This document shows, piece by piece, positions 9,690 to 24,619 of a stretch of DNA of 38,410 nucleotides (position 1 is the stretch's first letter; each line of letters opens with the position of its first letter). The stretch is from a virus: IMG/VR virus record IMGVR_UViG_3300034111_000220, positions 1 through 38,410 of that record; one strand, given 5' to 3'. The translations under genes and the position numbers were made by a program. The notes below the pieces were generated by a model, which had not been told where the DNA came from, searched no databases, and was given only the letters and a program-made list of their open reading frames with translations.

Positions 9690-12542
9690 ATGGCGAAAAG
9701 CTCGCCCGCGATCTCTAACTTCAACGGCGGCGAGGTCGGCCCTCTCCTATCCGGTCGCGTCGATTTCGAGAAGTACAGCAGCTCCTGCTACAAGATGGAG
9801 CGATTCATCCCGACTGTGCAGGGGCCAGCCAAGCGCTCGCCCGGTACACGGTTCGTGCTGCCGACTAAATATGCGGACAAGAATTCGTATCTCAAGCGCT
9901 TTGAGTTCTCGTTCGATCAGGCGTACATCCTTGAGTTTGGCGACCAATATGTGCGCTTCTACACCGATCGAGGTGTGGTGCTAGACACCACGCTCGACAT
10001 CACCAACGTCACTCAAGCCAACCCGGGCGTTCTGACCTACAGCGGCACCGATCCTGCCAACGGCGATTTCTTCTATGTCACAGGCATAGAGGGGATGACT
10101 GAACTCAACAATCGATATGTGCGTGTATCCAATGTGGATACAGGCGCAAATACGTTTGAGCTACAGACGCCAACCCAGCAGGCGATCGATACTAGTATCT
10201 ATGGCGCATACGTCTTCAACGGCGATATGCAAAAGGTTTATGAGATTGCCTCTCCCTATCTCGAGGCCGACCTGACGAATGCAGAGGGCGGCTGCGCCCT
10301 TTCGATTGTCCAGTCTGGTGACGTCCTCTATATCGGCTGCGAGGGCTATGCGCCGCGCACGTTGACCCGCAGCGGCAATACGAGCTGGGCGTTTGCAACG
10401 TATGCGCCGACTGACGGCCCGTTCCAGACGGAGCCGCTTGATACCAAGAATTTCACGCTCGGTGCCTCAACGGGTACCGGCGTTTCGTTGACCTGTTCGA
10501 CAAACATTTTCGAGGTTGCCCACGAAGGGATGCTGTTTCGGCTAGAGCCGACCAACATCACTACCCCGCCTTGGGAAACGAATAAGAGCATCACAGCGAC
10601 GAATCTGCGCAAGTCTGATGGCAAGTATTACGAAGCCACCAACACCGCTACAACGGGCTCTGTGCGCCCTATACACGAAGAAGGAACCGAGTCTGACGGC
10701 GGAGTGATTTGGGAGTATCTACACCCGGGATATGTCGTCGTCAAAATCGTAACGGTAACGGACGCGCAAACGGCGACCTGCGACATCATTGGCCCGGGCA
10801 TTGCTCCTGCCGAGGTGGTTGCCGGTGACGACTGCCGGTTCCGCATCGGCGCGTGGGGTGAAGCGACAGGCGCTGCGTTCCCGTACAAAGTCTCTTTCTG
10901 GCGTGATCGGTTGTGGTGGGCTGGCAACCAGCAAGTTTATGCCTCGGTGGCTGGCGATTATTCCTCGATGGCTCCCGACACTCTTGGCGAGATCCTTGCG
11001 GATAACTCAATTTCGCTGACCATATCGGTCGGCAAGGTGGACAAGATCCGCTGGATGACGGCATCAGATGTGCTGCTGATCGGTACTGCTGGTTCTGAAA
11101 TCGCGGTGCAGGAAGTCACGCCAAACCAAGTGCTCGGCCCCGAGAACGTCAAGTACGAGATCCAGTCTGCTGAAGGCTCGAGAGAGTTAGAGGCGGTGCT
11201 GGTTGAGGATTCGGTGTTGTTTATTCGCATCGGTGGCCGTCGTGTCATCGAGCTGCGTTTCGACATCCAGTCTGATTCGTGGGTGCCGCGCGATATGAAC
11301 GTGCTGTACCCAGAGATCACCCAGACCGGCATCGTCGAGATGGCGTATCAGAAGGAGCCGGACAATATCATCTGGATCGTTCTGGCGAACGGCAACTTGA
11401 TCGGCATGACCTATGACCGAGAGCAGAACGTCTACGGCTGGCACCGTCATCCGATTGCCGGAGCTGGAGCCAAGGTCAAATCTGTTCAAGTGGCTACCGG
11501 CCCAGACGGCGACGTTGACGATGTGTGGATGATTGTCGAGCGCGACCTTGCCGATTACGCCATTCTCTCTGAAGCATCAGAATACGTCACCGCAGAAGAT
11601 GGCAGCCGAATGCTAATTGACGAGCCGATTGAAGTCGGGCGTTACGTTGAGTTTTTTGCGCAGGGATTTGAGCAAAATCAAGACGTCCAGAGCGCGGTCT
11701 ATCTTGACTCGTCGCTCGAGTTTGACAACACGATCAATGAGACGCTGTTGCCCGGGTTTGATTCCATTACCCGCGGCGCTACCAATGTGCCGTTTGAAGT
11801 CACATCGTTTTTTGAGCTGATCACAGAAGATGGCCTCGACTTCTTGGTAACGGAAGCAGAGGATTTCCTTGCCGTCACGGATGACATTTTTGTAGCTACA
11901 GACGTAGGCCGAGAGATCCGCTTGCGCTACTTTGACAGCGTATCCGAGCAATGGCTGACCGCTCGAGCGCTCATCACAAGCTACGTTGATGAGAGCAAGG
12001 TGCTGTGCACGATCCTCGCTCCGTTCCCGAATTCGGATGAAATCCCGGCTAATGGCTGGCGAATGACATCGACCGTGATCACAGGGCTGTGGCATCTGGA
12101 AGGCCAGACAATCAGCGCGCTAGCTGACGGCGCAGAGATTGAGAATTTGACCGTGCTTAACGGATCTGTGACGATGCCGGTGGCTACCGCTCGAGCGCAG
12201 TTCGGTCTGCCGTATACGTCTTATCTTGCGACTCAACGGATTGACTCGGGTGCCACGGATGGCACCGCGCAGGGCAAGACGAAGAGATTCCATCAGATCG
12301 TGATGCGCTTGTACGCAAGTCTTGGCGGTAAGGTTGGGCCGGATGCGTCATCGACCGATTACATTTTGTATCGATCGCTGTCAGACTACATGGATGAGGT
12401 TCCACCTGTTTTGACTGGCGATACCGACAAGTTTCCGTATCCGGGTGGCTACGAAACCGATGGCCGCATCTGGGTCTTGGCTGATCAGCCTCTGCCGCTG
12501 ACTGTCGTTGCGATGTACCCGCGAATGAAGACGGAGGACTAA
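9690..12542 (+). CDS. tail tubular protein B (nozzle), T7 gp12-type
   Basis: 950 aa, longer than T7 gp12 (794 aa). The N-terminus (SNFNGGEVGPLLSGRVDFEKY ... QGPAKRSPGTRFV) is the hallmark of podovirus nozzle proteins. The rest is beta-rich with repeated Asp/Thr/Gly segments. Six copies would close the tail and open for DNA ejection. The extra length lies in the middle and C-terminal parts (for example the repeated FELITEDG/FLVTEAEDFLAVTDD segment near residues 705-735) and may be an added beta domain. Its stop overlaps the next ATG by one base. Confidence 0.9.
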   Translation: MAKSSPAISNFNGGEVGPLLSGRVDFEKYSSSCYKMERFIPTVQGPAKRSPGTRFVLPTKYADKNSYLKRFEFSFDQAYILEFGDQYVRFYTDRGVVLDTTLDITNVTQANPGVLTYSGTDPANGDFFYVTGIEGMTELNNRYVRVSNVDTGANTFELQTPTQQAIDTSIYGAYVFNGDMQKVYEIASPYLEADLTNAEGGCALSIVQSGDVLYIGCEGYAPRTLTRSGNTSWAFATYAPTDGPFQTEPLDTKNFTLGASTGTGVSLTCSTNIFEVAHEGMLFRLEPTNITTPPWETNKSITATNLRKSDGKYYEATNTATTGSVRPIHEEGTESDGGVIWEYLHPGYVVVKIVTVTDAQTATCDIIGPGIAPAEVVAGDDCRFRIGAWGEATGAAFPYKVSFWRDRLWWAGNQQVYASVAGDYSSMAPDTLGEILADNSISLTISVGKVDKIRWMTASDVLLIGTAGSEIAVQEVTPNQVLGPENVKYEIQSAEGSRELEAVLVEDSVLFIRIGGRRVIELRFDIQSDSWVPRDMNVLYPEITQTGIVEMAYQKEPDNIIWIVLANGNLIGMTYDREQNVYGWHRHPIAGAGAKVKSVQVATGPDGDVDDVWMIVERDLADYAILSEASEYVTAEDGSRMLIDEPIEVGRYVEFFAQGFEQNQDVQSAVYLDSSLEFDNTINETLLPGFDSITRGATNVPFEVTSFFELITEDGLDFLVTEAEDFLAVTDDIFVATDVGREIRLRYFDSVSEQWLTARALITSYVDESKVLCTILAPFPNSDEIPANGWRMTSTVITGLWHLEGQTISALADGAEIENLTVLNGSVTMPVATARAQFGLPYTSYLATQRIDSGATDGTAQGKTKRFHQIVMRLYASLGGKVGPDASSTDYILYRSLSDYMDEVPPVLTGDTDKFPYPGGYETDGRIWVLADQPLPLTVVAMYPRMKTED

Positions 12543-12967
12543 TGGAAGTCGTCTCATTCAAAGCTCAATATCTGCAGCAAATGACCTTGCAAGATGCGCA
12601 AAAAATGACGCATTTTGCTGCATTTGATGAAGAATATTGCGACCAACTTGTTGCAGCAGGGCCGGCATATACGGTTCTGCGAAACAACAATCCGATTATG
12701 TGCGCAGGATTGGCCGAAATGTGGTCAGGGCGTTTTGCTGCTTGGGCATGGCTTTCAGAAGATGCTGGACGCAGCATGATTCAATTAACAAGAATTGTTG
12801 ATGACTACCTCAACACCCGTCCTTATCGGCGCATTGAGGCGTATGTCGATAACCAATTTTCCGCCGGCCACCGTTGGGCAAAAATGCTGCGATTTGAATA
12901 TGAAGGTCTAATGCGTGGGTTTGGCACTCAAGGCCAAGACATGGCGATGTATTCGAGGATTCAGTAA
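12542..12967 (+). CDS. internal virion protein A-like (T7 gp13/GNAT-like)
   Basis: 141 aa, the size of T7 gp13 (138 aa), in the same position after the nozzle gene. The sequence (CAGLAEMWSGRFAAWAWLSEDAGRSM ... RRIEAYVDNQFSAGHRWAKMLRFEYEG) has the look of a GNAT acetyltransferase fold, which I recall for the gp13 family. Enzymatic activity is not implied. It has a good GGAGG site. From here to about 16300 the genes look poorer in GC at third positions than the capsid gene. Confidence 0.8.
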   Translation: MEVVSFKAQYLQQMTLQDAQKMTHFAAFDEEYCDQLVAAGPAYTVLRNNNPIMCAGLAEMWSGRFAAWAWLSEDAGRSMIQLTRIVDDYLNTRPYRRIEAYVDNQFSAGHRWAKMLRFEYEGLMRGFGTQGQDMAMYSRIQ

Positions 12968-13518
12968 TGGCAGACCCAATAACAATTGCCGCAATCGTTT
13001 CAGCCGCTGCATCCGCCACGGCTACGCTTACGGAAACTGCGCAAGCGCGCAGAATAGGAAAACTTCAAGCTCGAGGCTTGGAAGAGCAAGCTCGCGCTAC
13101 GGCGCTTGAAACGACTGCCGCTGTAGAGGCGCAGTCACGAGAAACGCGTAGGCAGTTCGGCGAGACCCGTACTGCTGCTGCGCAAATGGGATTGCTTGAG
13201 TCTGCCTCATTTGCCGATCTTTATAGTGAGTCTGCTACTGCTGCCGAGCTAGATCGATTGAATCGGGAATACGAAGGTGAAGGCCGTCGTCGAGGATTGA
13301 TGTTTGAGGCTGGCGTAACGCGCGCTGCGCGCCCTCTTTGGGGGCCGGCAATTCTGTCTGCTGGCTCCAACGCCTTGAGTGCGTATGCCGGTGCTGGTGG
13401 AAAGATGCCACAAAAGCCGACAATCGACGACCTGCAAGAAGTTAAAATCAGCAGTCGCAAAGTCAAGCCGCGCGTCTATGTGACCGGCCCGCGTATGCTG
13501 CGAAACACAGGTAGATAA
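12967..13518 (+). CDS. internal virion protein B-like (T7 gp14)
   Basis: 183 aa, against 196 for T7 gp14. It has an Ala-rich hydrophobic N-terminus (ITIAAIVSAAASATATLTETAQARR), a long helical Gln/Glu/Arg region, and a basic C-terminus. T7 gp14 is ejected and forms the outer-membrane part of the DNA channel; the same role is inferred from order and size. It starts overlapping the previous stop by one base and ends 2 bases before the next gene. Confidence 0.8.
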   Translation: MADPITIAAIVSAAASATATLTETAQARRIGKLQARGLEEQARATALETTAAVEAQSRETRRQFGETRTAAAQMGLLESASFADLYSESATAAELDRLNREYEGEGRRRGLMFEAGVTRAARPLWGPAILSAGSNALSAYAGAGGKMPQKPTIDDLQEVKISSRKVKPRVYVTGPRMLRNTGR

Positions 13519-13520
13519 TC

Positions 13521-15620
13521 ATGGCAAAGCTCGAATTCTATCGACAGCAAACGACGCCTCGCGTCATTGCTCCCGATGTCGGTGGACTCGGGCGCATTCA
13601 GTCTGGATTTGGTCAGGCGGCAGAAGCCATTGCTCGAGGTGCCGCAGCTGCTGGGCAGATGATCGAGCGGCGTAATCTAGAGATTGAAAAGCGCCGCGAA
13701 GATGAGGCCGCGATTGATGCGTCCTCCAAAGCTGTCGAGCTGACTAGCCGATGGCTTGATGAAGAGCAGAGGCTGCGGCAGGAAGCCGAGGCTGCTGACA
13801 ATTTTGACGGGTTTACGGATACCGCGCAGGGGCGGTATCAGGAGCTAGTCAACGAGTATCTTCCAAACCTCAAGTCTGACAAAGCCCGCGCGTGGTTTAC
13901 GGAGCGAACTGCAATTCAAGGCTTGGATGTGCAGCGCGGCTCAATGGATTATCAAGCGCGCAGCTCTGTTGCAAAAACTGTCAGAATTGAAGGCGAAACG
14001 TTTAACACTTCTCGCAGGCTTGTTCAGGTCGATCCCTCTAAATTTTCAGAGCTATCTGAAAGTTTAAAGCTGTCTGCATCTAGAATTACAGACAAACAAG
14101 TTGCCGCGAAATTTTACGATCAAAACCGCGCATTGCTTGCGCAGGATGCTGCTATATCAGCAGCCGATCGCAATCCGCGTCAGATCCTTGACGCTCTTGC
14201 CAAGCCGCAGGGAGAGACGGGCTTTGCGTATCTTGATGCCCTTGATGCTGATTCTGTGGATAACGTTAAAGCTGCCGCCGAGCGCAGACTTGCCATCCTT
14301 GAGCAAGAGCGCCGCGTTCGTCAGGCTGAAGCTCGAGAAGCGCTGCGCACACAGATTGACGATCAGTTTGCGTACATGAGTGTCGGAATTATGCCGGACA
14401 AGTTAATTCCGCAATCTGCGTTTGTTAATGCTGGCATGGCTGACCGATATAGCGACTATCGTGAAACGTACAACGCCAGCGCAACGCTTGTGTCAATGTC
14501 CACTATGCCTCGAGCAGAGGCTGCGCAGAAGATCGCTGCGATGAAGCCTACCGCAGAGGCTGGGGCTGCCGGAAAGCTGAAGCGATACGAGATGGTTTCC
14601 GAGTCTTATGCGCGTATGGTTCAGGCGCAGGAAAATGATCCAGCCGCATATCTCATTGAGCGCAATCCTGCTATTCGCAGCGCTTATGACGCAATGAATG
14701 CTGCTCAAACAACAGAAGAACAGCAGGCTGCTGCGGCGAATTTTGCGCGTATAGTTGATCTTGAGTCCAAGCGAATCGGAATCAACAACAAGTCAATTCT
14801 GCCAAACGCTCTGGCTGCTGATATTGTGAACCGAACGTTTATGCCATATCAGCAAGGCGCTTCAACTGGAGCGGCTGCCATTTTGGCAGAGCGTCAGAGA
14901 TGGGGTAGTTACTGGGGAAGGGTGCAGTCTCAAGTTGCCGCAAAGCTGCCGGGTGACGCAGCGATTATTGGAGCTGGCATGGCTGAAGGCCCGGCAAACC
15001 GATTGATACAAATGAACGCGGTTAGCGAAGCTGACATGGCAAAACTGTTGCCCGTAAATGTCTCTAAAAAAGATCTTGATGATGAAATTACGGATATATC
15101 TCAAGATCTTGAAGCGTCTTGGTTTGCAAAGCCGGGTAGTGAAGCAACCATGCTTGCAATTAAAAGCGCGACTGCAAAGCTTGCTATTGATTACATGAGA
15201 AATGGCAGAGGTTTAAACGACGCAGTAGCGCAAGCCTTTGGCGAAGTTGTAGGCGATCGTTATCGGTTTGCAGAGATTAACGATTCTGTCGTTCGTATTC
15301 CAAGCCCAAACAACCGCGAGGCTGGAGCTGGGGAAATCAGTAGTTCTCAAATCAGAACTGGGTTGCGTTCATTTACAAATGATGCAATTCAAGATCTTGG
15401 TTTTGGGAATGTCCGAGGCACTTACTGGCAAACATCGGCAGACGACAAGTCTGTTATGTTGATGCGAGACGGGCAGCCGCTACAAAATTCTCAAGGCGAA
15501 TTTATTATGTATTCTTGGCAAGAGATCAGGAATCGAGCCGCTACTAGAATGTTTACGCGAGAGCAAAAAGAGCGAGAACTCCTTGAGTCATCGAAATCTG
15601 CGCGCGGAATCAATCCATGA
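13521..15620 (+). CDS. internal virion protein C-like (T7 gp15)
   Basis: 699 aa (T7 gp15 is 747 aa), almost all helical, rich in Ala, Glu, Gln and Arg, with no membrane span. It is in the canonical position between the gp14- and gp16-type genes. T7 gp15 makes the periplasmic tube of the ejection channel. Identification rests on order, length and composition more than on a single motif. Its stop overlaps the next ATG by 4 bases (ATGA). Confidence 0.8.
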   Translation: MAKLEFYRQQTTPRVIAPDVGGLGRIQSGFGQAAEAIARGAAAAGQMIERRNLEIEKRREDEAAIDASSKAVELTSRWLDEEQRLRQEAEAADNFDGFTDTAQGRYQELVNEYLPNLKSDKARAWFTERTAIQGLDVQRGSMDYQARSSVAKTVRIEGETFNTSRRLVQVDPSKFSELSESLKLSASRITDKQVAAKFYDQNRALLAQDAAISAADRNPRQILDALAKPQGETGFAYLDALDADSVDNVKAAAERRLAILEQERRVRQAEAREALRTQIDDQFAYMSVGIMPDKLIPQSAFVNAGMADRYSDYRETYNASATLVSMSTMPRAEAAQKIAAMKPTAEAGAAGKLKRYEMVSESYARMVQAQENDPAAYLIERNPAIRSAYDAMNAAQTTEEQQAAAANFARIVDLESKRIGINNKSILPNALAADIVNRTFMPYQQGASTGAAAILAERQRWGSYWGRVQSQVAAKLPGDAAIIGAGMAEGPANRLIQMNAVSEADMAKLLPVNVSKKDLDDEITDISQDLEASWFAKPGSEATMLAIKSATAKLAIDYMRNGRGLNDAVAQAFGEVVGDRYRFAEINDSVVRIPSPNNREAGAGEISSSQIRTGLRSFTNDAIQDLGFGNVRGTYWQTSADDKSVMLMRDGQPLQNSQGEFIMYSWQEIRNRAATRMFTREQKERELLESSKSARGINP

Positions 15621-18600
15621 GCTTTGAAGGCTTATTAAGAGATCAGCAAACTGCGCCACAGACTGATATCCGAGATTTAAGTCTTGGAGAAGAGTTGATT
15701 GCAACTGCGCGGGAGACGATGGACTTTAACCCAGTCCAAGCGCTTTCTCGCGGAATTAAGTTACGAGAAGCCTATAAAAGCGGCAGACCAATTACGGCAG
15801 ATGTTGCGCGCGCTCAACTGCGCGATGCCAACTTGGATATGCAACTGACTATTCCAGATCAGGGCATTACTCAAGAAGCTCTGGACATTATTATCCAAAG
15901 AAAGCGCATAGAAAATGCAAACCGTGATGTGCTTTCCAGAAGTCCCGGCGGATTTGGTCGTGGCGCTGCTAGGCTTGCCGTCGGGTTTGGCGTGTCTCTT
16001 TTTGATCCAATCAACCTTACTTCTGGCTTTATCCCGGTTGTAAGCCAAGCGAGATATGCGTCTCTGCTTCGAGCGCGATCTACCTTTGCTGGCAGAACCG
16101 CCGTTCGGGCTGGTGTCGGAGCTGTAGAAGGCGCTGTCGGTGCTGCCGTGATTGAACCGTTGATTCTCTCAACGGCGCAGTTAGAGCAGGCTGATTATGA
16201 TGCTGCCGATTCGCTACTTAATATTGCCTTCGGCGCTGGAATTGGTAGTGGCTTGCACGTTATTGGCGGCAGCGTATCAGAGGCTTATCGCCGTTCTCGC
16301 GGATTACCTCCGCTGCCTCCGGAGCGCCAAATTGATGATGCCGTGCGTCAGGCTATTGAAGCCGACCAAGCCCTGCCGCCGATTGGCGAAGTCGAGGCTG
16401 CTGCTCGAGCGCTTGATCCGGATGACGTCGTTATTGCGCGTAACCGCGAGACGCTAATTGCTCGCGCTGCGGATGCTCCTGTTGCTAGCCGGGAGCAATT
16501 GCTTCGTGAACTGACTGATGCGGAGACTGCGCTGTCTCGAGCAACGGATCAGGCCGGGGCAACGACGCCGCTAGATGCGCGTATCGCCCAGATTGAGGCG
16601 CGTCTGCGAAACGAGGACGTTGCCGTCTTTGGCCCAGATCAGGCAGACAGCCGTCAGGTTCAGCGCTTACGTCAGCGAACTGCTCGCAAGCAGGCTGAAG
16701 CAGAACTGCGCAACGAAGAAGACTCCTCGCTCGACTTGCAGATTAACTCCAAAGCTCGAGCAGAGCGCGCCAGCCGTGAGCTGCTGCGATTGATGAGCGC
16801 CAAGGAAGCGCGTCGGTTGCTCGATAAGATCGAGGCTAACAAGCCGCTGTCAGCCGATGAGATGGCGACTCTGCGCGCAATCGATGCCGAGACGATGCCG
16901 GGCAGCGCTCGCAATGTCACCGAACAGATATTGCCGGAGACCCGCCGCGCAGCTCTCTCGACTGGCATTGCGCAGGCAATGCAGAGCCGCACGATCAACG
17001 TCGAGCCGATCGTCAACCTTGACCCGTCGCAGAGACAGAATGCTCCGGTCGATCCGATGGTGTCTGCTCGTAATGCAGCCATTGAGAATGCGCGCCCAGA
17101 TCAGGCTGCGATGGTGGACTTTGATGCCGCTGCCGAGATCCCCGAGCCGCGCGCTGTTCCGATGCTAGACGCCGCAGCGCAATCGCTGGATGAGGCTGTC
17201 GCCGCTGCTGATGAGGCAGTTGCTGCAATCAATGCCGAAGGTCAGTACCGGCGCAATCTGCTGGTGCAGGAAGAGGGGATTGTCTACGGCGATGTGCCTG
17301 ACACCATCGATGCGATTTCTAACATCGAGGCGGCGTTTGAGCGCGCCAAAGGCAGAGAGTTCCCAAACAACCGTGAATTTAAGAAAGACATCCAAGATGC
17401 GGTGAATGCCGCGGCTCGAGAATCTGGCGTCGATCTCACAGAATTTACTCCTGACGTTGAGCGTTATCTGGTGCGCGTTGCCTTGCGCGAGGCGCGTATT
17501 GCCTTGCGCGATAACTCGAACGCGATCGGCTGGTACAACGAGAAAGTTACCAAGGCTCTGCGAATTATCTCGCTGATCCATCCGGAGATTCTCTCCAGCC
17601 GTGAGGATCGCCTCGCCTTTACTTGGGCGCTTGCTGTTACGTCAAACGGGCTCAAAGTCGATAAGAACTTTGAACTGGCGATTAAGGCATACGAGGCGTG
17701 GCGCAAGACCGGAACAATGCCGGACAACGTCGGCATCGGCACAGCAGCCAAAAAGATCAACGACGGACTGCGTCTCTATAACGTGATGCTCAAGCAGCAC
17801 GGGTTCGATGCTCTTGAGAAATTCATGCGCAACAAGGATACGGTGAAGAACATCACCGGATTCTCTGGCTTGAAGATCACGGGCGAAAATATGTCTACCG
17901 AGGTGTACGGTTCTGCCGTTCTCGGCCCGAAGATTGGTAACGGGTTCTTCTCGAATCTGTACGGCAACTTTGAGCAGCTCACCATCGACCGATGGCTGAT
18001 GCGCACATGGGGCCGCTGGACTGGCACCCTGATCGAAGAGAACCCGGTGCAGGTTCGCGCCAAGCGCAAATCCCTGACCAGCCTTGTGCGCCTGCTGGAT
18101 AGCACGCAGCGCAAAGAGCTCGAGCGCATTCTCGGCAAGCGCGTCGCCGTTGCTCGCCCTGATGAGCTGGCTTTTGCCATTGCCAAGGCGAGCATGAAGC
18201 CGGAGAACCGTGCCGCGCTCAACGCGATCGGCGCAGGATTCGATCAAAAGGCGCTGAACGAAATTGTCGGGCAACCCAAGAAAGGAGATGTCCGAGTCGG
18301 TTTAGGGGATGAGATCCGCAAGGCTGGCAATGCCTTGTCGAAATACCTCGACGGCCAGAAAGAAGCCCCCGATGGGCCGCCCGAAAGAGGCCGTATTCGC
18401 AAGGTATTTGGTGCCGTTTTGGAGCGACTCCAAAAGGACAATCCAGACCTGACGATGGCCGACTTGCAGGCTTTACTTTGGTATCCAGAAAAGCGACTAT
18501 ATGACGCCGCAGGAGCATCAGATGCAGAAGTCGAAGCAGGGTATGCAGACGACGCAGCCCCAGACTACGCAAACGCAGCAGCCAAGCTCGCCGAAGAACG

Positions 18601-21600
18601 AGGAATCTCCAGAGACAGAATCTCCGGAGTCACTCGCGCAGTTGATGAAGAGCTACAGGCCGAGCAACGCGCAAGACGAACAGGACGAGGAGATCTCGAG
18701 GTTTCTCGAGGCCTTACCGTAAATGAAGGACTCCAACGTTATCTCGCCGAAGGCCCTGTTCGATCGCAGGCTGGCCCGGGGGCAGTTGCTGCCCAACGGC
18801 AAGCGGTTAGGGCCGTGGAGGACTTACGATCAACCGACTCTATACTCGGCCTCGCCCTCTCTGATCAGTATGCAGAGCGCCAGAGAGTCTCGCTTGTCGG
18901 GCAAAAAGTAGCCGACCACGCCGACCTCGCCGTGCTGGCGCAGGTCTACCGCGATCCTCGCTTTGAGACGCTGCGGTACTTCTTCGTCGATCGCAACGAC
19001 AACATCATTGCGCAGGCTGGGTTGACGTCACGCCTGCCGGGATCGGCTGCGGCCATCATTGGCGATGACCCGCAGGGCTTTTACGGCGAGCTAGTGCAAC
19101 GCGCTATCTTCTTGGGTGCAAAGGGCGTGTATATGCTGCACAACCACCCAAGCACCAATCCGACCGCAAGCGTTCCTGACATTGACGTTACTCGTTATGT
19201 GTCTAAATTTGTTTCTAAAATGGGCGTGGAATTAAAAGGCCATGTCATCATCGACACTAACCAGTACACGGTTATCGATGCAGAAGGCAATACGCGCACT
19301 ATCGCTAAAGACTTTGGGCAGGCCGATCCGAAGAAGCTGATGGACATTGGCAGCAAGCCATTAACGAATCCGGACATTCTGGTCAACATTGCCAAGCAAA
19401 TTGAAGTCGACGAAGACGCCGTTGTTATTGCGGTTGCTAATGCCAAACTTGAAGTGCAGAACCTTGCTGTGCTTCCAAGTGAGCAGTTGCGCAAAGGCAG
19501 CGCAGCAGCAAAGTCTGCTCTTATGCGAACTGCTCTAGAGGCTAGAGGCAGTTTCTTGTTTGCTATTGGCAAGAACATGGAAACCTTGGGCGCTATTAAA
19601 GACCTTGTGGTTGATAGCGTGTTTGTTTCTCCTGATGGGCGTTATGTCACTTCTGGAAATGCGGCGATGCGCTCTCCGCTGCCACAAGATCGTCGCGCCC
19701 GAGCATCTGCTGATACTAGCCCTGCGTTTGATTACCTGCGTCAAGTGTCTTTGCAGGATGCCAAACGGATGCGCGGAGTCGCAGAAGAAGGCGGCGTGTA
19801 CGAAGCGCCGGATACGAATGCAGAACTGCGCCCGTTTAACGATGCTATACAACGGGCTGACATCTACGCTCGCGCTGTTCGCGCTGCGGCAGAACGGATC
19901 GGAAACGATGATGCTGCTCGCGCTGCAATGCAAGCGGCTACCAATAACCAGCTTGGCGCATACGAAATTGACGCCCTGCTTGAGAAGCTCAAGCTTGAGA
20001 ACCAGACTGTGCGATCACGGCTGCGTAAGGCCAAAGCGCAATTCACGGCTGACGAGACTGCGGATGCCCTTCAGAGTGATGCGATGCGCGCAGCCAATGC
20101 GGTTGCCAATAACGTCAAGCTCGACGCCACGATCGCAGCTCGTAACGCTGCTTTAGGTCTGGCCGCCCGCACCAAAATTGTCGGACGCGTCATTACCGAG
20201 TTTGCGCAGAACCCGAAAGAAGGAATTCTGGCTGTGCTCGGTGGTTCGTCGTTTGCCAAGTTTGGCGCTAAAGACTCGGTGTTCCATTGGCAGCGCACCT
20301 ACTTCACGCGCTGGACAAAGGGGATGCTGGCAGAGCTTGAGCAAGCCAAGGTCGGCGAGGCGTTTATGAGCAACGCCTATGCTCGAGATGTGGCTCGCGC
20401 TCTGTACCAACTTGGCCGCGAAAACCCGAGGCTTGAGGGGCTGGCTGATGAGGCGGTGACGATTGCCAAGATCGTGTACAAGTACCGTGAGGACGCCCGC
20501 AATACTCGCAACCGATTCGGTGCGTGGATTCGTGACTTAACTGGATACATCACTCGACAACAGCACGACTTCACCAAGATCAAAACGGCAGGCGCGGAAG
20601 AGTGGAAAGCATTTGTTCGCCAGCGCCTCGACATTGATCGCACTTTGGAGCCGGGGCAGAACCTTGAGGAGTTCCTCGACTTTGTGTATTCCGACTTTTC
20701 TGCTGGTCGGCAAATGGCCGTTATCGATGATGAGGCTGCTGCCTACACGGCACCGGGATCGCTGGCTCGTCGTGCGTCACAGTCTCGCGTTTTGTACTTC
20801 CTCGATGCCGATGCCGAATTTGACTACCTTGAGAAGTTCGGCGCTGGCAAATTGAACGAGGCTGTTCTCGGCGATTTGAGCCGAGCAGCGCAGCAGGCTG
20901 GTTTGATGCGCATCCTTGGGCCAAACCCCGAGTACACGCTCAAGGCTTCAATGGCCGAGATCGATGCGTCAATCCGTGGCAATGCGGAATTGCGCGAGCA
21001 GTTCTCCGGAGCAGTCACTACGGCAAACGAATTGCTGACAATGCTGGACGGTCGAGCCAACATCCCGGGTTCCCAGATCTCTGCTCGCGTCGGATCTAAC
21101 ATCCGCGCATTGCAGGCAATGTCCAAGCTGGGTGGCGCGGTGATCTCTGCCGTGACTGATCTGCCCGTATACGCAAGCCAGATCCGTTATCAGGGCCGCG
21201 GCGGCTTGCTGGCTGGTATCGGCGATGGCATCAGCAGCCTGCTTCAAGGGCGCGCTAAAGGCGAGCGCAGGCAGATCCTAAACATGATCGATACCGTCTC
21301 CGAGAATGTCGTCGGCGGCGTTGCCATGCGCTTTGACTCTGACGATGTGATGTCTTCGACGTCGGCTGACCTTATGCGGATCTTCTTCCGTCTGAATGGC
21401 TTGACTTGGTGGACGGATACTTTGCGCGAGGGGATGGAGATTGGCACGGCTAACTGGCTCGGCAATCTGCGCAATACCGCGTTCGATGCCATCAGCGCCG
21501 ATTCAAAAAATGTGTTGCAACAGTACGGCATCTCGGCTCCAGAGTGGGACGTTATGCGTCAGGCTTTCGTGTCTGACAGCAAGGGCAAGTTTTACGTCGT

Positions 21601-22432
21601 GCCAGAGTCGGTTACTCGATTGTCGCCAGATGTGATCCGACAGTACCTAGCGACTATTGGCCGCTCATCAACGGATACCGCTGTGGGTAATGCCCGCCGG
21701 GACTTGGCTGATCGCCTGCGCAATTTGATTGTTGATCAGGCAATGACTGCGGTCATCGAGCCGGATGTGCGGTCGCGCTATTTCTGGTCGCGCGGCACCA
21801 AGCCGGGCTCTTTCTACGGCGAGATCGCTCGATACATTTCTCAATTTAAGGGATTCCCGACTGCACTCACCCGGCAGGTATTTGGCCGAGAGATCTATGG
21901 CCGCGGCTATAACTCGCTTGGCGAATATCTGAAGTACGGCAAGGGCGATATGCTCGGCCTCGCCCAACTGATTTTGGCAATGACCGCATTTGGTTATATC
22001 GCAATGGCGGCAAAGGATCTGCTCAAGGCAAAGACGCCGCGCGATCCGACGGAGCCGCAGACATGGATCGCTGCCATGCTGCAAGGCGGCGCTCTAGGTA
22101 TCTACGGCGACTTCTTGCTTGGGCAATCCAACAGGTTTGGCAGGAACATTGTCGATACGTTGGTTGGCCCAACATTTGGCGTTCTTGGCGATCTTGACGA
22201 GCTGCGCCAGCGAGCCATGAAGGGTGACGATGTAGCCTCGTCAGCGTTCCGAATGCTAATCGCCAACACGCCGTTTATGAATCTGTTCTATAGCCGTATA
22301 GTTCTGGATTACCTAATTCTGTACCAGATTCAGGAAGCCCTAGACCCGGGCGCCCTGCGACGAATGGAACGTAGGGTCGAACGTGAGCAGAACCAAGAGT
22401 TCTTGCTGGCACCTTCTGAAGTAGTGGAGTAA
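15617..22432 (+). CDS. giant internal virion protein D-like (T7 gp16 position) with RadC/JAB domain
   Basis: 2271 aa, far longer than T7 gp16 (1318 aa). Residues about 110-210 contain hydrophobic Gly/Ala segments (RLAVGFGVSLFDPINLTSGFIPVV). Residues about 560-820 form a conserved-looking block with NAIGWYNEKV (W639) and DRWLMRTWGRWTG (W793), which I recall from large polyvalent phage and plasmid proteins. Residues about 1065-1240 are a RadC/JAB domain: E1158, H1175-N-H1177-PS and D1188 match the JAMM metal set. The C-terminal half (about 1500-2271) resembles other podovirus core proteins. I see no lytic transglycosylase domain. It is presumably ejected with the DNA, so the JAB peptidase could act in the host. 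Two open frames overlap it at 18522-18911. Confidence 0.88.
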   Translation: MSFEGLLRDQQTAPQTDIRDLSLGEELIATARETMDFNPVQALSRGIKLREAYKSGRPITADVARAQLRDANLDMQLTIPDQGITQEALDIIIQRKRIENANRDVLSRSPGGFGRGAARLAVGFGVSLFDPINLTSGFIPVVSQARYASLLRARSTFAGRTAVRAGVGAVEGAVGAAVIEPLILSTAQLEQADYDAADSLLNIAFGAGIGSGLHVIGGSVSEAYRRSRGLPPLPPERQIDDAVRQAIEADQALPPIGEVEAAARALDPDDVVIARNRETLIARAADAPVASREQLLRELTDAETALSRATDQAGATTPLDARIAQIEARLRNEDVAVFGPDQADSRQVQRLRQRTARKQAEAELRNEEDSSLDLQINSKARAERASRELLRLMSAKEARRLLDKIEANKPLSADEMATLRAIDAETMPGSARNVTEQILPETRRAALSTGIAQAMQSRTINVEPIVNLDPSQRQNAPVDPMVSARNAAIENARPDQAAMVDFDAAAEIPEPRAVPMLDAAAQSLDEAVAAADEAVAAINAEGQYRRNLLVQEEGIVYGDVPDTIDAISNIEAAFERAKGREFPNNREFKKDIQDAVNAAARESGVDLTEFTPDVERYLVRVALREARIALRDNSNAIGWYNEKVTKALRIISLIHPEILSSREDRLAFTWALAVTSNGLKVDKNFELAIKAYEAWRKTGTMPDNVGIGTAAKKINDGLRLYNVMLKQHGFDALEKFMRNKDTVKNITGFSGLKITGENMSTEVYGSAVLGPKIGNGFFSNLYGNFEQLTIDRWLMRTWGRWTGTLIEENPVQVRAKRKSLTSLVRLLDSTQRKELERILGKRVAVARPDELAFAIAKASMKPENRAALNAIGAGFDQKALNEIVGQPKKGDVRVGLGDEIRKAGNALSKYLDGQKEAPDGPPERGRIRKVFGAVLERLQKDNPDLTMADLQALLWYPEKRLYDAAGASDAEVEAGYADDAAPDYANAAAKLAEERGISRDRISGVTRAVDEELQAEQRARRTGRGDLEVSRGLTVNEGLQRYLAEGPVRSQAGPGAVAAQRQAVRAVEDLRSTDSILGLALSDQYAERQRVSLVGQKVADHADLAVLAQVYRDPRFETLRYFFVDRNDNIIAQAGLTSRLPGSAAAIIGDDPQGFYGELVQRAIFLGAKGVYMLHNHPSTNPTASVPDIDVTRYVSKFVSKMGVELKGHVIIDTNQYTVIDAEGNTRTIAKDFGQADPKKLMDIGSKPLTNPDILVNIAKQIEVDEDAVVIAVANAKLEVQNLAVLPSEQLRKGSAAAKSALMRTALEARGSFLFAIGKNMETLGAIKDLVVDSVFVSPDGRYVTSGNAAMRSPLPQDRRARASADTSPAFDYLRQVSLQDAKRMRGVAEEGGVYEAPDTNAELRPFNDAIQRADIYARAVRAAAERIGNDDAARAAMQAATNNQLGAYEIDALLEKLKLENQTVRSRLRKAKAQFTADETADALQSDAMRAANAVANNVKLDATIAARNAALGLAARTKIVGRVITEFAQNPKEGILAVLGGSSFAKFGAKDSVFHWQRTYFTRWTKGMLAELEQAKVGEAFMSNAYARDVARALYQLGRENPRLEGLADEAVTIAKIVYKYREDARNTRNRFGAWIRDLTGYITRQQHDFTKIKTAGAEEWKAFVRQRLDIDRTLEPGQNLEEFLDFVYSDFSAGRQMAVIDDEAAAYTAPGSLARRASQSRVLYFLDADAEFDYLEKFGAGKLNEAVLGDLSRAAQQAGLMRILGPNPEYTLKASMAEIDASIRGNAELREQFSGAVTTANELLTMLDGRANIPGSQISARVGSNIRALQAMSKLGGAVISAVTDLPVYASQIRYQGRGGLLAGIGDGISSLLQGRAKGERRQILNMIDTVSENVVGGVAMRFDSDDVMSSTSADLMRIFFRLNGLTWWTDTLREGMEIGTANWLGNLRNTAFDAISADSKNVLQQYGISAPEWDVMRQAFVSDSKGKFYVVPESVTRLSPDVIRQYLATIGRSSTDTAVGNARRDLADRLRNLIVDQAMTAVIEPDVRSRYFWSRGTKPGSFYGEIARYISQFKGFPTALTRQVFGREIYGRGYNSLGEYLKYGKGDMLGLAQLILAMTAFGYIAMAAKDLLKAKTPRDPTEPQTWIAAMLQGGALGIYGDFLLGQSNRFGRNIVDTLVGPTFGVLGDLDELRQRAMKGDDVASSAFRMLIANTPFMNLFYSRIVLDYLILYQIQEALDPGALRRMERRVEREQNQEFLLAPSEVVE
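18522..18722 (+). CDS. possible overprinted small gene inside the internal virion protein gene
   Basis: This +1-frame ORF encodes 66 aa, very rich in Gln, Ser, Pro, Thr and Glu, with a more ordered end (SLAQLMKSYRPSN ... EEISRFLEALP). An AGGAG sits 6 bases before the ATG at 18522. In this stretch the +1 frame uses G/C-ending codons (CAG, ACG, AAG, CCG, GAG), while the main frame uses more A-ending codons (GCA, CGA, GGA, AGA) than in many other parts of the gene. That suggests the +1 frame is also translated. Its stop is followed at once by the ATG of 18723. The main frame is open and looks conserved here, so this would be dual coding. It could still be chance. Confidence 0.35.
   Translation: MQKSKQGMQTTQPQTTQTQQPSSPKNEESPETESPESLAQLMKSYRPSNAQDEQDEEISRFLEALP
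18723..18911 (+). CDS. possible second overprinted ORF, coupled to 18522-18722
   Basis: 62 aa in the same +1 frame, beginning directly after the preceding TAA (TAAATG). The first half (MKDSNVISPKALFDRRLARG, then QLLPNGKRLGPWRTYDQ) uses mostly G/C-ending codons and reads like a real protein; the last third looks less convincing. It overlaps the start of the JAB region of the main frame. No homolog is recognised. Confidence is low because long shadow frames are common in this genome. Confidence 0.25.
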   Translation: MKDSNVISPKALFDRRLARGQLLPNGKRLGPWRTYDQPTLYSASPSLISMQSARESRLSGKK

Positions 22433-22435
22433 ACC

Positions 22436-24619
22436 ATGACCGTCTCATCATCGACTGCTCGAGTAAGTTATTCCGGCAACGGCTCAACACAAGCCTTTGC
22501 TGTCCCGTTCTACTTCCTGTCTAGCTCGCATCTGTTGGTAACGCTGCGAGCCTCGACCGGAGTCGAAACCCCGCAAGTGCTCGGCACCGATTACACGGTG
22601 ACTGGCGCTGGCGTCTTGACTGGCGGCACCGTCACGATGACAACTGCTCCCGCCTCTGGCGCGACGCTCGTTATCGTGCGCAACGTCCCGCTGACGCAAG
22701 AGACGGATCTACAGCCGAACGATCGCCTGCCTGCGGAGACGCTCGAGCAGACGGTTGATAAGCTGACGATGATCACGCAGCAGCTTGATGAGGCGTCGGA
22801 TCGCGCGATCAAGTTTCCCGTGTCTGACTCGTCATCGTTTGACACGACGCTGCCCGTTTCGTCCACGCGCGCGGGCAAGTATTTCAAGTTCGGATCGACC
22901 GGCGCGATCTCTTTGGATAGCGTTGCCCCGGGATACGCAACCGCGGTGGTCACGGATTTTGGCGCTGTCGGTGACGACTCGACGGTGAACACGACTGCCA
23001 TTCAATCGGCGATCGACTCGCTGACCAACGGTGGCACGTTGTTCTTCCCGACCGGCACATACCGCTCTGGCTCGCTGACGATCGGCAGCGCAAACATCAA
23101 GTTCCTAATGACTGACGGAACGGTGCTGAAGTTCCCGACCCTCGGCGCGAGTGCCAAGGCGATTACGGTCAATGCCAATAACTTCTCGATTGAGGGCGGC
23201 AAACTGCAAGGCCCGGCTGCCTCGGTGTATGTCGCCAACGAGAACGGCATTCATATGCTCGGCACCTCTACCTCGGCGCGCAAGTCTGGCCTGCGCTTGG
23301 TTGATGTCGAGATTACCCAGTTCGGCGGCCACGGCATTTATGCGCAGTTCGTCGACGACATCCTTCTCGACTCCTGCAAGATTCACTATTGTGGATATTC
23401 CGGAGCGTCGTTCTTATCCTGCAATCACGGCGTTGCTACCAAGAATCAGTTCTTGAATATCACTCCGGGCACGGTCGGCAATATGTACGGCATCACGCTG
23501 ACGCATGACTCGACCGGCTACAGCAGCGATCCGAATGTAGGCACCAAGCTCGCTGCGAATCCGTTTTGCTGGGATTGGTATGTTGGCTACAACTATGTCG
23601 CTTATAACGCATGGGAAGGCATCGACTGCCACGGCGGCTACGACATCACCATTGATAGCAACAAGGTCTATGCAACGTATGGCGGTATCGCTTGCTCATC
23701 TTCGAGCGGCGACGCTGCTGCCTATGCTGGCGCGAACAACGTCATCACGAACAATGTCGTCGATGCGCGTAACCCGGACGGATCTGCCTCTGGCTACGAG
23801 AATGACAACTACGGCATCAACCTCAACGGCGGCTCGACGCTGAACCACAAGAACGTGGTCTGCAAAGGCAACGTCGTGATCAATCACGGCATCTTGGGCA
23901 ACACCAACTCTGGTGCGATCCAAGCGGTGTATGTACAGAATGCCTCGTTGACCGAGAACATTGTGCAGAAGTGGGGCGGTGCTGCGATTGTGGCAACGGC
24001 CAGCTCGTCAATGGTGATCGATAGCAATACGTTCCTTGAGCTTGGCGGCACGGCTGCTGGCGCAGAGAACGCAATTATGATCGAGACGACGACATCGCTC
24101 GGCAATACGTTCACGATTACCAATAACAATATGCAGGCCAACGGTGGAACGGCTGGATTGGTTGGCGTTCGCGCCGAGCAGATCACGACGCTGCCGTACT
24201 TTGCTGGCAACGACTTTGCTGCTGCGACATCTTCTGGATACGTTGTCCCGAATGACTTCCTGACAAGCGATCTGGCGTCACCCATCTATCGCGTTACGGT
24301 GAATAACGCAGGAGGTGGAGCGGCTGTGAATGTGAACATAGCCGCGCTGTCTCGATACCAAATCGTCCGGATCGACGTTACGTCTAGCAATGCAGCGTCT
24401 GAAATTTCAAATTTCACGAATGGTGTATACGGTCAGATCCTTCATATCCACTCACCTTCATCGACGGCGTTCGTCTTGAATGCGACTGCCAAGCGACTGT
24501 CAGGTGGTACGTCGTTCACGGCGAGCCAGTACGACATCGTCACGTTGCTTCAGACCGGCGATGTCTCTGGTGTCGGCGGCGTGTTCTGGACGGAGATCAG
24601 CCGTTCTGTGAATGCGTAA
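22436..24619 (+). CDS. tailspike with pectate-lyase-type beta-helix
   Basis: 727 aa. Residues about 1-125 (VSYSGNGSTQAFAVPFYFLSS ... RNVPLTQETDLQPNDRLPAETLEQTVDKLTM) form the virion-binding N-terminal domain common to podovirus fibres. Residues about 160-210 (VVTDFGAVGDDSTVNTTAIQ ... GGTLFFPTGTYRSG) are the classic start of a pectate-lyase-3 right-handed beta-helix, which continues with Asn/Gly-rich coils to about residue 600. A C-terminal beta module follows. It probably binds and may degrade a host surface polysaccharide. It is the last late gene before the convergent early operon and overlaps the opposing gene by 23 bases. Confidence 0.9.
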   Translation: MTVSSSTARVSYSGNGSTQAFAVPFYFLSSSHLLVTLRASTGVETPQVLGTDYTVTGAGVLTGGTVTMTTAPASGATLVIVRNVPLTQETDLQPNDRLPAETLEQTVDKLTMITQQLDEASDRAIKFPVSDSSSFDTTLPVSSTRAGKYFKFGSTGAISLDSVAPGYATAVVTDFGAVGDDSTVNTTAIQSAIDSLTNGGTLFFPTGTYRSGSLTIGSANIKFLMTDGTVLKFPTLGASAKAITVNANNFSIEGGKLQGPAASVYVANENGIHMLGTSTSARKSGLRLVDVEITQFGGHGIYAQFVDDILLDSCKIHYCGYSGASFLSCNHGVATKNQFLNITPGTVGNMYGITLTHDSTGYSSDPNVGTKLAANPFCWDWYVGYNYVAYNAWEGIDCHGGYDITIDSNKVYATYGGIACSSSSGDAAAYAGANNVITNNVVDARNPDGSASGYENDNYGINLNGGSTLNHKNVVCKGNVVINHGILGNTNSGAIQAVYVQNASLTENIVQKWGGAAIVATASSSMVIDSNTFLELGGTAAGAENAIMIETTTSLGNTFTITNNNMQANGGTAGLVGVRAEQITTLPYFAGNDFAAATSSGYVVPNDFLTSDLASPIYRVTVNNAGGGAAVNVNIAALSRYQIVRIDVTSSNAASEISNFTNGVYGQILHIHSPSSTAFVLNATAKRLSGGTSFTASQYDIVTLLQTGDVSGVGGVFWTEISRSVNA

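Follow-up and report, generated by a model that had tools for sequence, protein, structure and literature searches.

The short-tailed phage of virus record IMGVR_UViG_3300034111_000220, analysed over its whole length of 38,410 bases (the window), encodes in the position of T7 gp16 a protein of 2271 residues in which a RadC-type JAB domain and an exchangeable cassette lie between two structural parts. Polyvalent proteins of this kind are already known; what appears from sequence comparison to be new is that a phage polyvalent ejection protein bears RadC, in the place of a zincin. The explanation that we favour, with a probability of roughly 0.4, is that this is a phage-type polyvalent ejection protein whose JAB, in the zincin's place, processes the fusion in cis or in trans. 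What favours processing is that sister proteins have another metallopeptidase motif in the corresponding place, and that in relatives the flanking parts function as proteins of their own.

Two core proteins joined around an insert

The gene and its parts, all on the + strand, are as follows (positions of the window).

15617-22432, +: open reading frame of the 2271-residue gp16-position protein, a predicted fused core/ejection protein with a polyvalent insert
15680-17239, +: N structural region, residues 22-541; phrog_3003 at 5e-40; its own gene in most relatives
17249-18664, +: interchangeable cassette, residues 545-1016, an all-helical polyvalent-associated block; model with a predicted local distance difference test score (pLDDT) of 83.6
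18440-18900, +: stretch in which relatives differ unusually little in nucleotide sequence, at the border of cassette and JAB
18734-18886, +: constant linker before the JAB, residues 1040-1090, retained where the cassette is missing or a different one
18887-19291, +: RadC-type JAB domain, residues 1091-1225; Pfam, NCBIfam and PHROG models, AlphaFold model
18935-18976, +: LAQVYRDPRFETLR motif, residues 1107-1120, near-invariant, with the invariant JAMM glutamate E1117 (18965-18967)
19139-19180, +: JAMM segment HNHPSTNPTASVPD with H1175, H1177, S1185 and D1188, invariant in the window and 39 relatives
19292-19786, +: beta-rich companion domain, residues about 1226-1390, from the strand/helix pattern in the model; travels with the JAB and is also found in other giant proteins
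19925-22429, +: C structural region, residues 1437-2271; phrog_684 'virion structural protein' at 8e-168

The phrog_3003 match covers the first 541 residues of the protein and the phrog_684 match the last 835. These two parts are encoded by two adjacent genes, with neither JAB nor insert, in Pseudomonas phages Flu_PA14_4 and Ab31, Stenotrophomonas phage BUCT708, Vibrio phage 1.182.O and Pelagibacter phage HTVC203P, and several of these split-gene relatives are annotated as internal virion or structural proteins. Since the N and C parts are adjacent separate genes in relatives, the window gene is, as judged by homology, a fusion of two core-protein genes with an insert of about 900 residues between them. 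The insert begins with the interchangeable cassette, followed by a constant unit of linker, JAB and beta domain, and leads into the structural C-terminus. The protein thus combines several unrelated functional domains in one large chain and its gene sits among late virion genes, as is found for phage-type polyvalent proteins.

An earlier note on this DNA had assigned the protein to the gp16 position, in agreement with the T7-like order of the core genes and with the annotation of relatives as internal virion or virion structural proteins. From this position and the homologue annotation the protein is inferred to be part of the head core of the virion and to leave it with the DNA or ahead of it, and it would probably enter the host cell with the DNA. 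The same note had seen no lytic transglycosylase domain, and a search of the 2271 residues likewise gave no SLT match (Pfam, E of 0.5). Its suggestion that the JAB replaces the T7-type transglycosylase has to be given up. The preceding, gp15-position gene is the seat of a wall enzyme in relatives (SLT in L014, M23 in L011, an annotated endolysin, 'structural lysozyme' in Ab31), and the flanking core proteins occur without JAB and without a recognised transglycosylase; the JAB was therefore inserted between them and not substituted for one. The window protein shares with T7 gp16 (internal virion protein D) the gene position between gp15-like and tail-fibre genes, and differs from it in its large insert, in having no transglycosylase domain that we could find and in a C region that gave no sequence match to solved core proteins.

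A conserved RadC-type JAB domain with a complete metal site

A RadC/JAB domain had been proposed at 18920-19300, and sequence and structure comparisons both bear this out. The domain spans nucleotides 18887-19291 and matches Pfam RadC at 6.4e-12 (45.9 bits against a cut-off of 22.1; 51.5 bits in a PF04002 search of the record), while NCBIfam RadC models match residues 1114-1224 at 3e-11 and 2e-9. The full-length RadC model NF000642 scores 43.3 bits against a cut-off of 180, its match covering the C-terminal half only. An AlphaFold model of residues 1040-1440, built from 14 homologues, has a mean pLDDT of 60 and values of about 70-90 across much of the JAB core. It superimposes on the crystal structure of RadC (2qlc) with a Z of 16.4 and a root-mean-square deviation of 2.1 Å for 122 of 124 residues. 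The next structural matches are JAMM deubiquitinases, at Z of 8.8 or less, including PfJAMM1, the bacterial BubCD and complexes of a ubiquitin-like protein with its deubiquitinase. The fold comparison with RadC and JAB deubiquitinases that had been proposed as a check finds the JAB core present, and the domain is confirmed as a real and conserved RadC fold.

The published AfJAMM pattern E-Xn-H(S/T)H-X7-S-XX-D is found in the window as E1117...H1175-N-H1177-X7-S1185-XX-D1188, with asparagine allowed between the histidines. Three members of the JAMM set named in the earlier note (H1175, H1177 and D1188) are correct; its glutamate, E1158, is not, as relatives have E, N, D, G, R, S, K, Q or I at this position and it is E1117 that aligns with the RadC glutamate. 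None of E1117, H1175, H1177, S1185 and D1188 differs between the window and any of 39 relatives, the most distant of which has 31% identity, and these residues match those of E. coli RadC. The 2271 residues contain the zinc-site pattern HxHx7SxxD a single time, and 2 of 20,000 shuffled versions contain it. In close pairs the ratio of nonsynonymous to synonymous divergence (dN/dS) of the JAB is 0.03-0.10, i.e. the domain is under purifying selection. In one JAB variant (L147) the JAMM residues are kept, and a T, an H and a D further downstream, invariant in all others, are replaced by A, G and N.

Compared with the RadC family (PF04002; Chlorobium RadC 2qlc), the domain is alike in fold, JAMM residues and HNHPS motif. 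It differs in being part of a 2271-residue virion-type protein that scores under the NCBIfam full-length RadC cut-offs, and it adds to the RadC model an LAQVYRDPRFETxR lead-in and the beta companion. The strand order of the model hinted that the companion (residues 1226-1390) might be a degenerate second JAB; profile comparison gave nothing and we discarded this assignment. In 50,697 phage records the JAB unit has no close relative, the best matches aligning with part of the domain at about 27-43% identity. Between subclades, identity is 57% for the JAB, 34% for the beta companion, 79% for the helical block and 76% for the C region.

These data bear on two alternatives to processing. A non-catalytic structural relic or scaffold of the fusion would suit the long, fast-diverging companion and the fact that JAB catalysis is so far predicted, but the invariance of the five JAMM residues and the strong purifying selection make it very improbable. 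The second alternative, suggested in the earlier note, is an injected effector that strips ubiquitin-like conjugates or cuts a host defence protein. The JAMM site is complete, deubiquitinases are the next-best structural matches, and JAB and companion diverge more than the helical block and the C region, a pattern expected from an arms race or from module exchange. However, the fold is of the RadC type, for which a groove holding the ubiquitin tail has been judged unlikely (Iyer et al., PMC5512222), no ubiquitin-like gene was seen among the window open reading frames scanned, and the constancy of the domain at a junction shared with the zincin (see below) better fits processing. Removal of ubiquitin-like modifications is thus a possible but unlikely role, and a weaker explanation than processing.

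A zincin-like motif in the insert of sister fusions

A search with the C region alone, which is blind to the JAB, returned mostly split genes together with a second set of fusions (L167, L208, L170, L171, L217 and L214, with L169 partial). Their inserts contain a ddrB-ParB, ART-PolyVal or GP88-like domain and an HEVGxH segment, that is, HEXXXH plus a downstream glutamate, which is found in eight sister proteins. The segment lies between N and C, in the insert region where the window has its JAB. HEXXXH with a downstream glutamate is the motif of one set of polyvalent zincin metallopeptidases, for which a processing role has been proposed (Iyer et al. 2017, PMC5512222), and by this motif the sister insert domain is a putative zincin-like metallopeptidase. 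Every N-C fusion from the C-region search bears either a JAB or an HEXXXH segment between the two parts, and none of the C-only open reading frames does.

In the C-region tree the JAB fusions, the zincin fusions and one split row form a single clade with a support of 100 in the Shimodaira-Hasegawa-like approximate likelihood ratio test (SH-aLRT), and the JAB fusions form one clade nested within it (SH-aLRT 100). Two entries marked as split in the tree, L156 and L157, are merely truncated by their contigs. Among the fused-clade members found none is a cultured phage record. A cassette of about 550 residues, without a Pfam match, is common to three proteins that also have the HEXXXH segment, one of them fused (L171) and two split (L188 and L189).

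In our favoured mechanism the JAB would work as a zinc metallopeptidase and would have assumed the task of the zincin. The protein would be packaged in the head core and leave it either ahead of the DNA or together with it, and the JAB would cut the fusion in cis, or other copies in trans, during assembly or after ejection. Cutting would free the cassette enzyme and the two structural parts to act in their own places. We count in favour of processing the RadC fold with its invariant JAMM set and JAB dN/dS of 0.03-0.10, the occurrence of N and C as adjacent genes in isolates and most contigs together with the SH-aLRT of 100 for the fused clade, and the swapping of cassettes beside a constant JAB, with a GP88 cassette found also beside the zincin in L208. 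Taken in full, the proposal that a RadC-type JAB acts as a processing peptidase, displaced a zincin between two fused ejection proteins, cuts the fusion and frees a swappable injected enzyme cassette is a tentative one.

Several points weigh against processing. We know of no RadC-type JAB with demonstrated peptidase activity, and no cleavage site was identified in the 2271-residue protein. The association goes back to few independent events, perhaps a single fusion and a single replacement, and the forks of the tree that would give the direction of replacement are weak. The zincin call is made from the motif, the HEXXXH segment of the sister fusions having received no name from Pfam. JAB and a zincin-like segment occur together in L131, and the two are adjoining genes on a plasmid; they are therefore not strict alternatives. 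In L188 and L189 the zincin motif is in an N gene separate from C, and in L217 the zincin motif and C are separated by an ART cassette; positional equivalence thus holds only at the level of the insert. Furthermore, the zincin-bearing N4 virion RNA polymerase is packaged uncut, and the role predicted for RadC by Iyer et al. is nucleic-acid processing (both PMC5512222). The N4 polymerase resembles the window protein in its order of effector, zincin domain and large helical C-terminal domain and in being ejected from the head (PMC12633501). It differs in having a zincin where the window has the RadC-JAB and in its effector, and the likeness is one of layout.

The cassette slot and its helical block

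Among relatives with a JAB between N and C the cassette slot holds the helical block in 16 contigs, is empty in L109, and contains a GP88 domain in L110 (Pfam 1e-6) and a domain without Pfam name in L114. Linker, JAB and companion are constant while the cassettes differ. The GP88 cassette of L110 is homologous to one in the zincin-bearing L208 (3e-53) and in L150 (5e-115). Synonymous divergence (dS) at residues 1017-1090 is 0.02-0.09, compared to mostly 0.5-1.5 elsewhere in the same pairs, as expected were the modules joined by recombination at the cassette/JAB border. The stretch 18440-18900 is probably a recombination junction joining modules, or else under a DNA-level constraint of another kind; phage-encoded annealing-type recombination genes would suit such joining.

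The block next to the JAB had been likened to those of large polyvalent proteins, and residues 545-1016 are indeed shared with giant phage proteins that bear LPD22 and ART-PolyVal. We found the block in 125 viral loci (80 of them listed), mostly within proteins of 2500-3600 residues, some of which carry LPD22 and ART-PolyVal, and also in BFVD entries titled large polyvalent protein, RelA/SpoT or ART-PolyVal. As a family (17249-18664 in the window; L018-L097) it is about 470 residues long, widespread and unnamed, with an invariant GWYNEKVTKA, a GPKIGNGF followed by an invariant aspartate and a weak link to DUF7178.

Foldseek gave no PDB match to the block below an E of 0.001, and the only standing structural match is Pa-AGOG (1xqp), an 8-oxoguanine DNA glycosylase, with a Z of 7.4 over 205 residues, the next reaching 4.0. 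A lysine and an aspartate 19 residues apart are invariant in 49 sequences, a spacing known from OGG1. Comparison with Nth, MutY and AlkA profiles (hhalign) found nothing. Fold and Lys/Asp spacing suggest that the block may be HhH-GPD glycosylase-like, an assignment that we keep tentative because the sequence profiles gave no support.

In the main rival to processing, the JAB would be an enzyme that processes nucleic acids or nucleotides, injected to protect or repair the incoming DNA or to degrade a signal nucleotide, as Iyer et al. (PMC5512222) predict for the RadC domains of polyvalent proteins. The JAB fold is clearly nearer to RadC than to deubiquitinases, the neighbouring block has Pa-AGOG as its only standing match together with the invariant Lys/Asp pair, and the RadC unit is found together with ddrB-ParB. 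On the other hand, nuclease activity of RadC is not shown in the RadC literature examined, and a 2025 DALI comparison of a RadC-like domain gave metalloproteases and zero nucleases (PMC11981726). The glycosylase assignment of the neighbour is itself weak (Z 7.4, negative profile comparison), and the helical block is missing or swapped in L109, L110 and L114 while the JAB persists. We consider a nucleic-acid role doubtful, although it is the strongest of the alternatives.

RadC units in other proteins

Linker and JAB, partly with the companion, occur in further giant viral proteins of about 1800-3970 residues, among them L121 with LPD5, ddrB-ParB, LPD1 and RadC. A 3412-residue phage protein (L131:4230-14468) combines SLT, ddrB-ParB, RadC, a zincin-like segment, ART-PolyVal and LPD38. 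The nearest plasmid relative (37% identity) is a JAB gene on a conjugative plasmid of Nitrosomonas, where it directly follows a gene for a zincin metallopeptidase.

The window protein resembles the phage-type polyvalent proteins (PMC5512222) in carrying several unrelated enzyme-type domains in one large protein among virion genes, and the likeness extends to the ART-PolyVal and ddrB-ParB cassettes of the sister fusions and to LPD22/ART-PolyVal beside the helical block elsewhere. In contrast to the proteins described there, RadC is here in phage ones, fused between two core proteins, and these fusions qualify the 2017 statement confining RadC to polyvalent proteins of conjugative elements. Lambda tail protein K also has a JAMM-motif domain in a phage virion-assembly protein (PMC300881). 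It differs in being a tail-assembly protein, not an internal core protein, and in its partner domain. The partner in protein K is NlpC/P60.

RadC is widespread in bacteria, without an agreed biochemical function, and its presence at a protein junction where sister phages carry another metallopeptidase motif is a natural experiment on that function. The cassettes show that exchangeable enzymes have a slot in the core ejection proteins of short-tailed phages, an observation that broadens the polyvalent-protein idea. If true, processing would give RadC a peptidase role and reveal a polymorphic-toxin-like layout inside the DNA-ejection machinery.

Gene neighbourhood

The window has a T7-like order of head-tail adaptor, major head protein, tail proteins, two small internal virion proteins, the gp15-position protein, the 2271-residue protein and the tail fibre. 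It is not T7-related throughout, as it also contains an Sf6-type small terminase, a RecE-like exonuclease, a Sak-type annealing protein, NinB, RusA and a phage lysozyme. The following genes flank the fusion.

12967-13518, +: internal virion protein (phrog_418, 2e-11)
13521-15620, +: gp15-position core protein, 24% identity to the 'endolysin' of Flu_PA14_4
22436-24619, +: tail fibre or spike with a T7 tail-fibre N-terminus (PF03906, 1.7e-6) and a beta-helix

Residues 82-181 of the tail tube protein (9690-12542) weakly match the FCCH domain of ubiquitin E1 (PF16190, 1.2e-3). This was considered as a sign of ubiquitin chemistry and rejected, the match being below the cut-off; it is probably a beta-barrel resemblance. 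Assignment of a host from close homology was likewise abandoned: the helical block occurs in betaproteobacterial and other contigs, yet none of these has the JAB fusion. The record of Limnohabitans phage DC33 (L013, PQ492659.1) says Inoviridae for a genome of 39 kb that encodes a polyvalent-type protein of 3125 residues, and its taxonomy line looks wrong.
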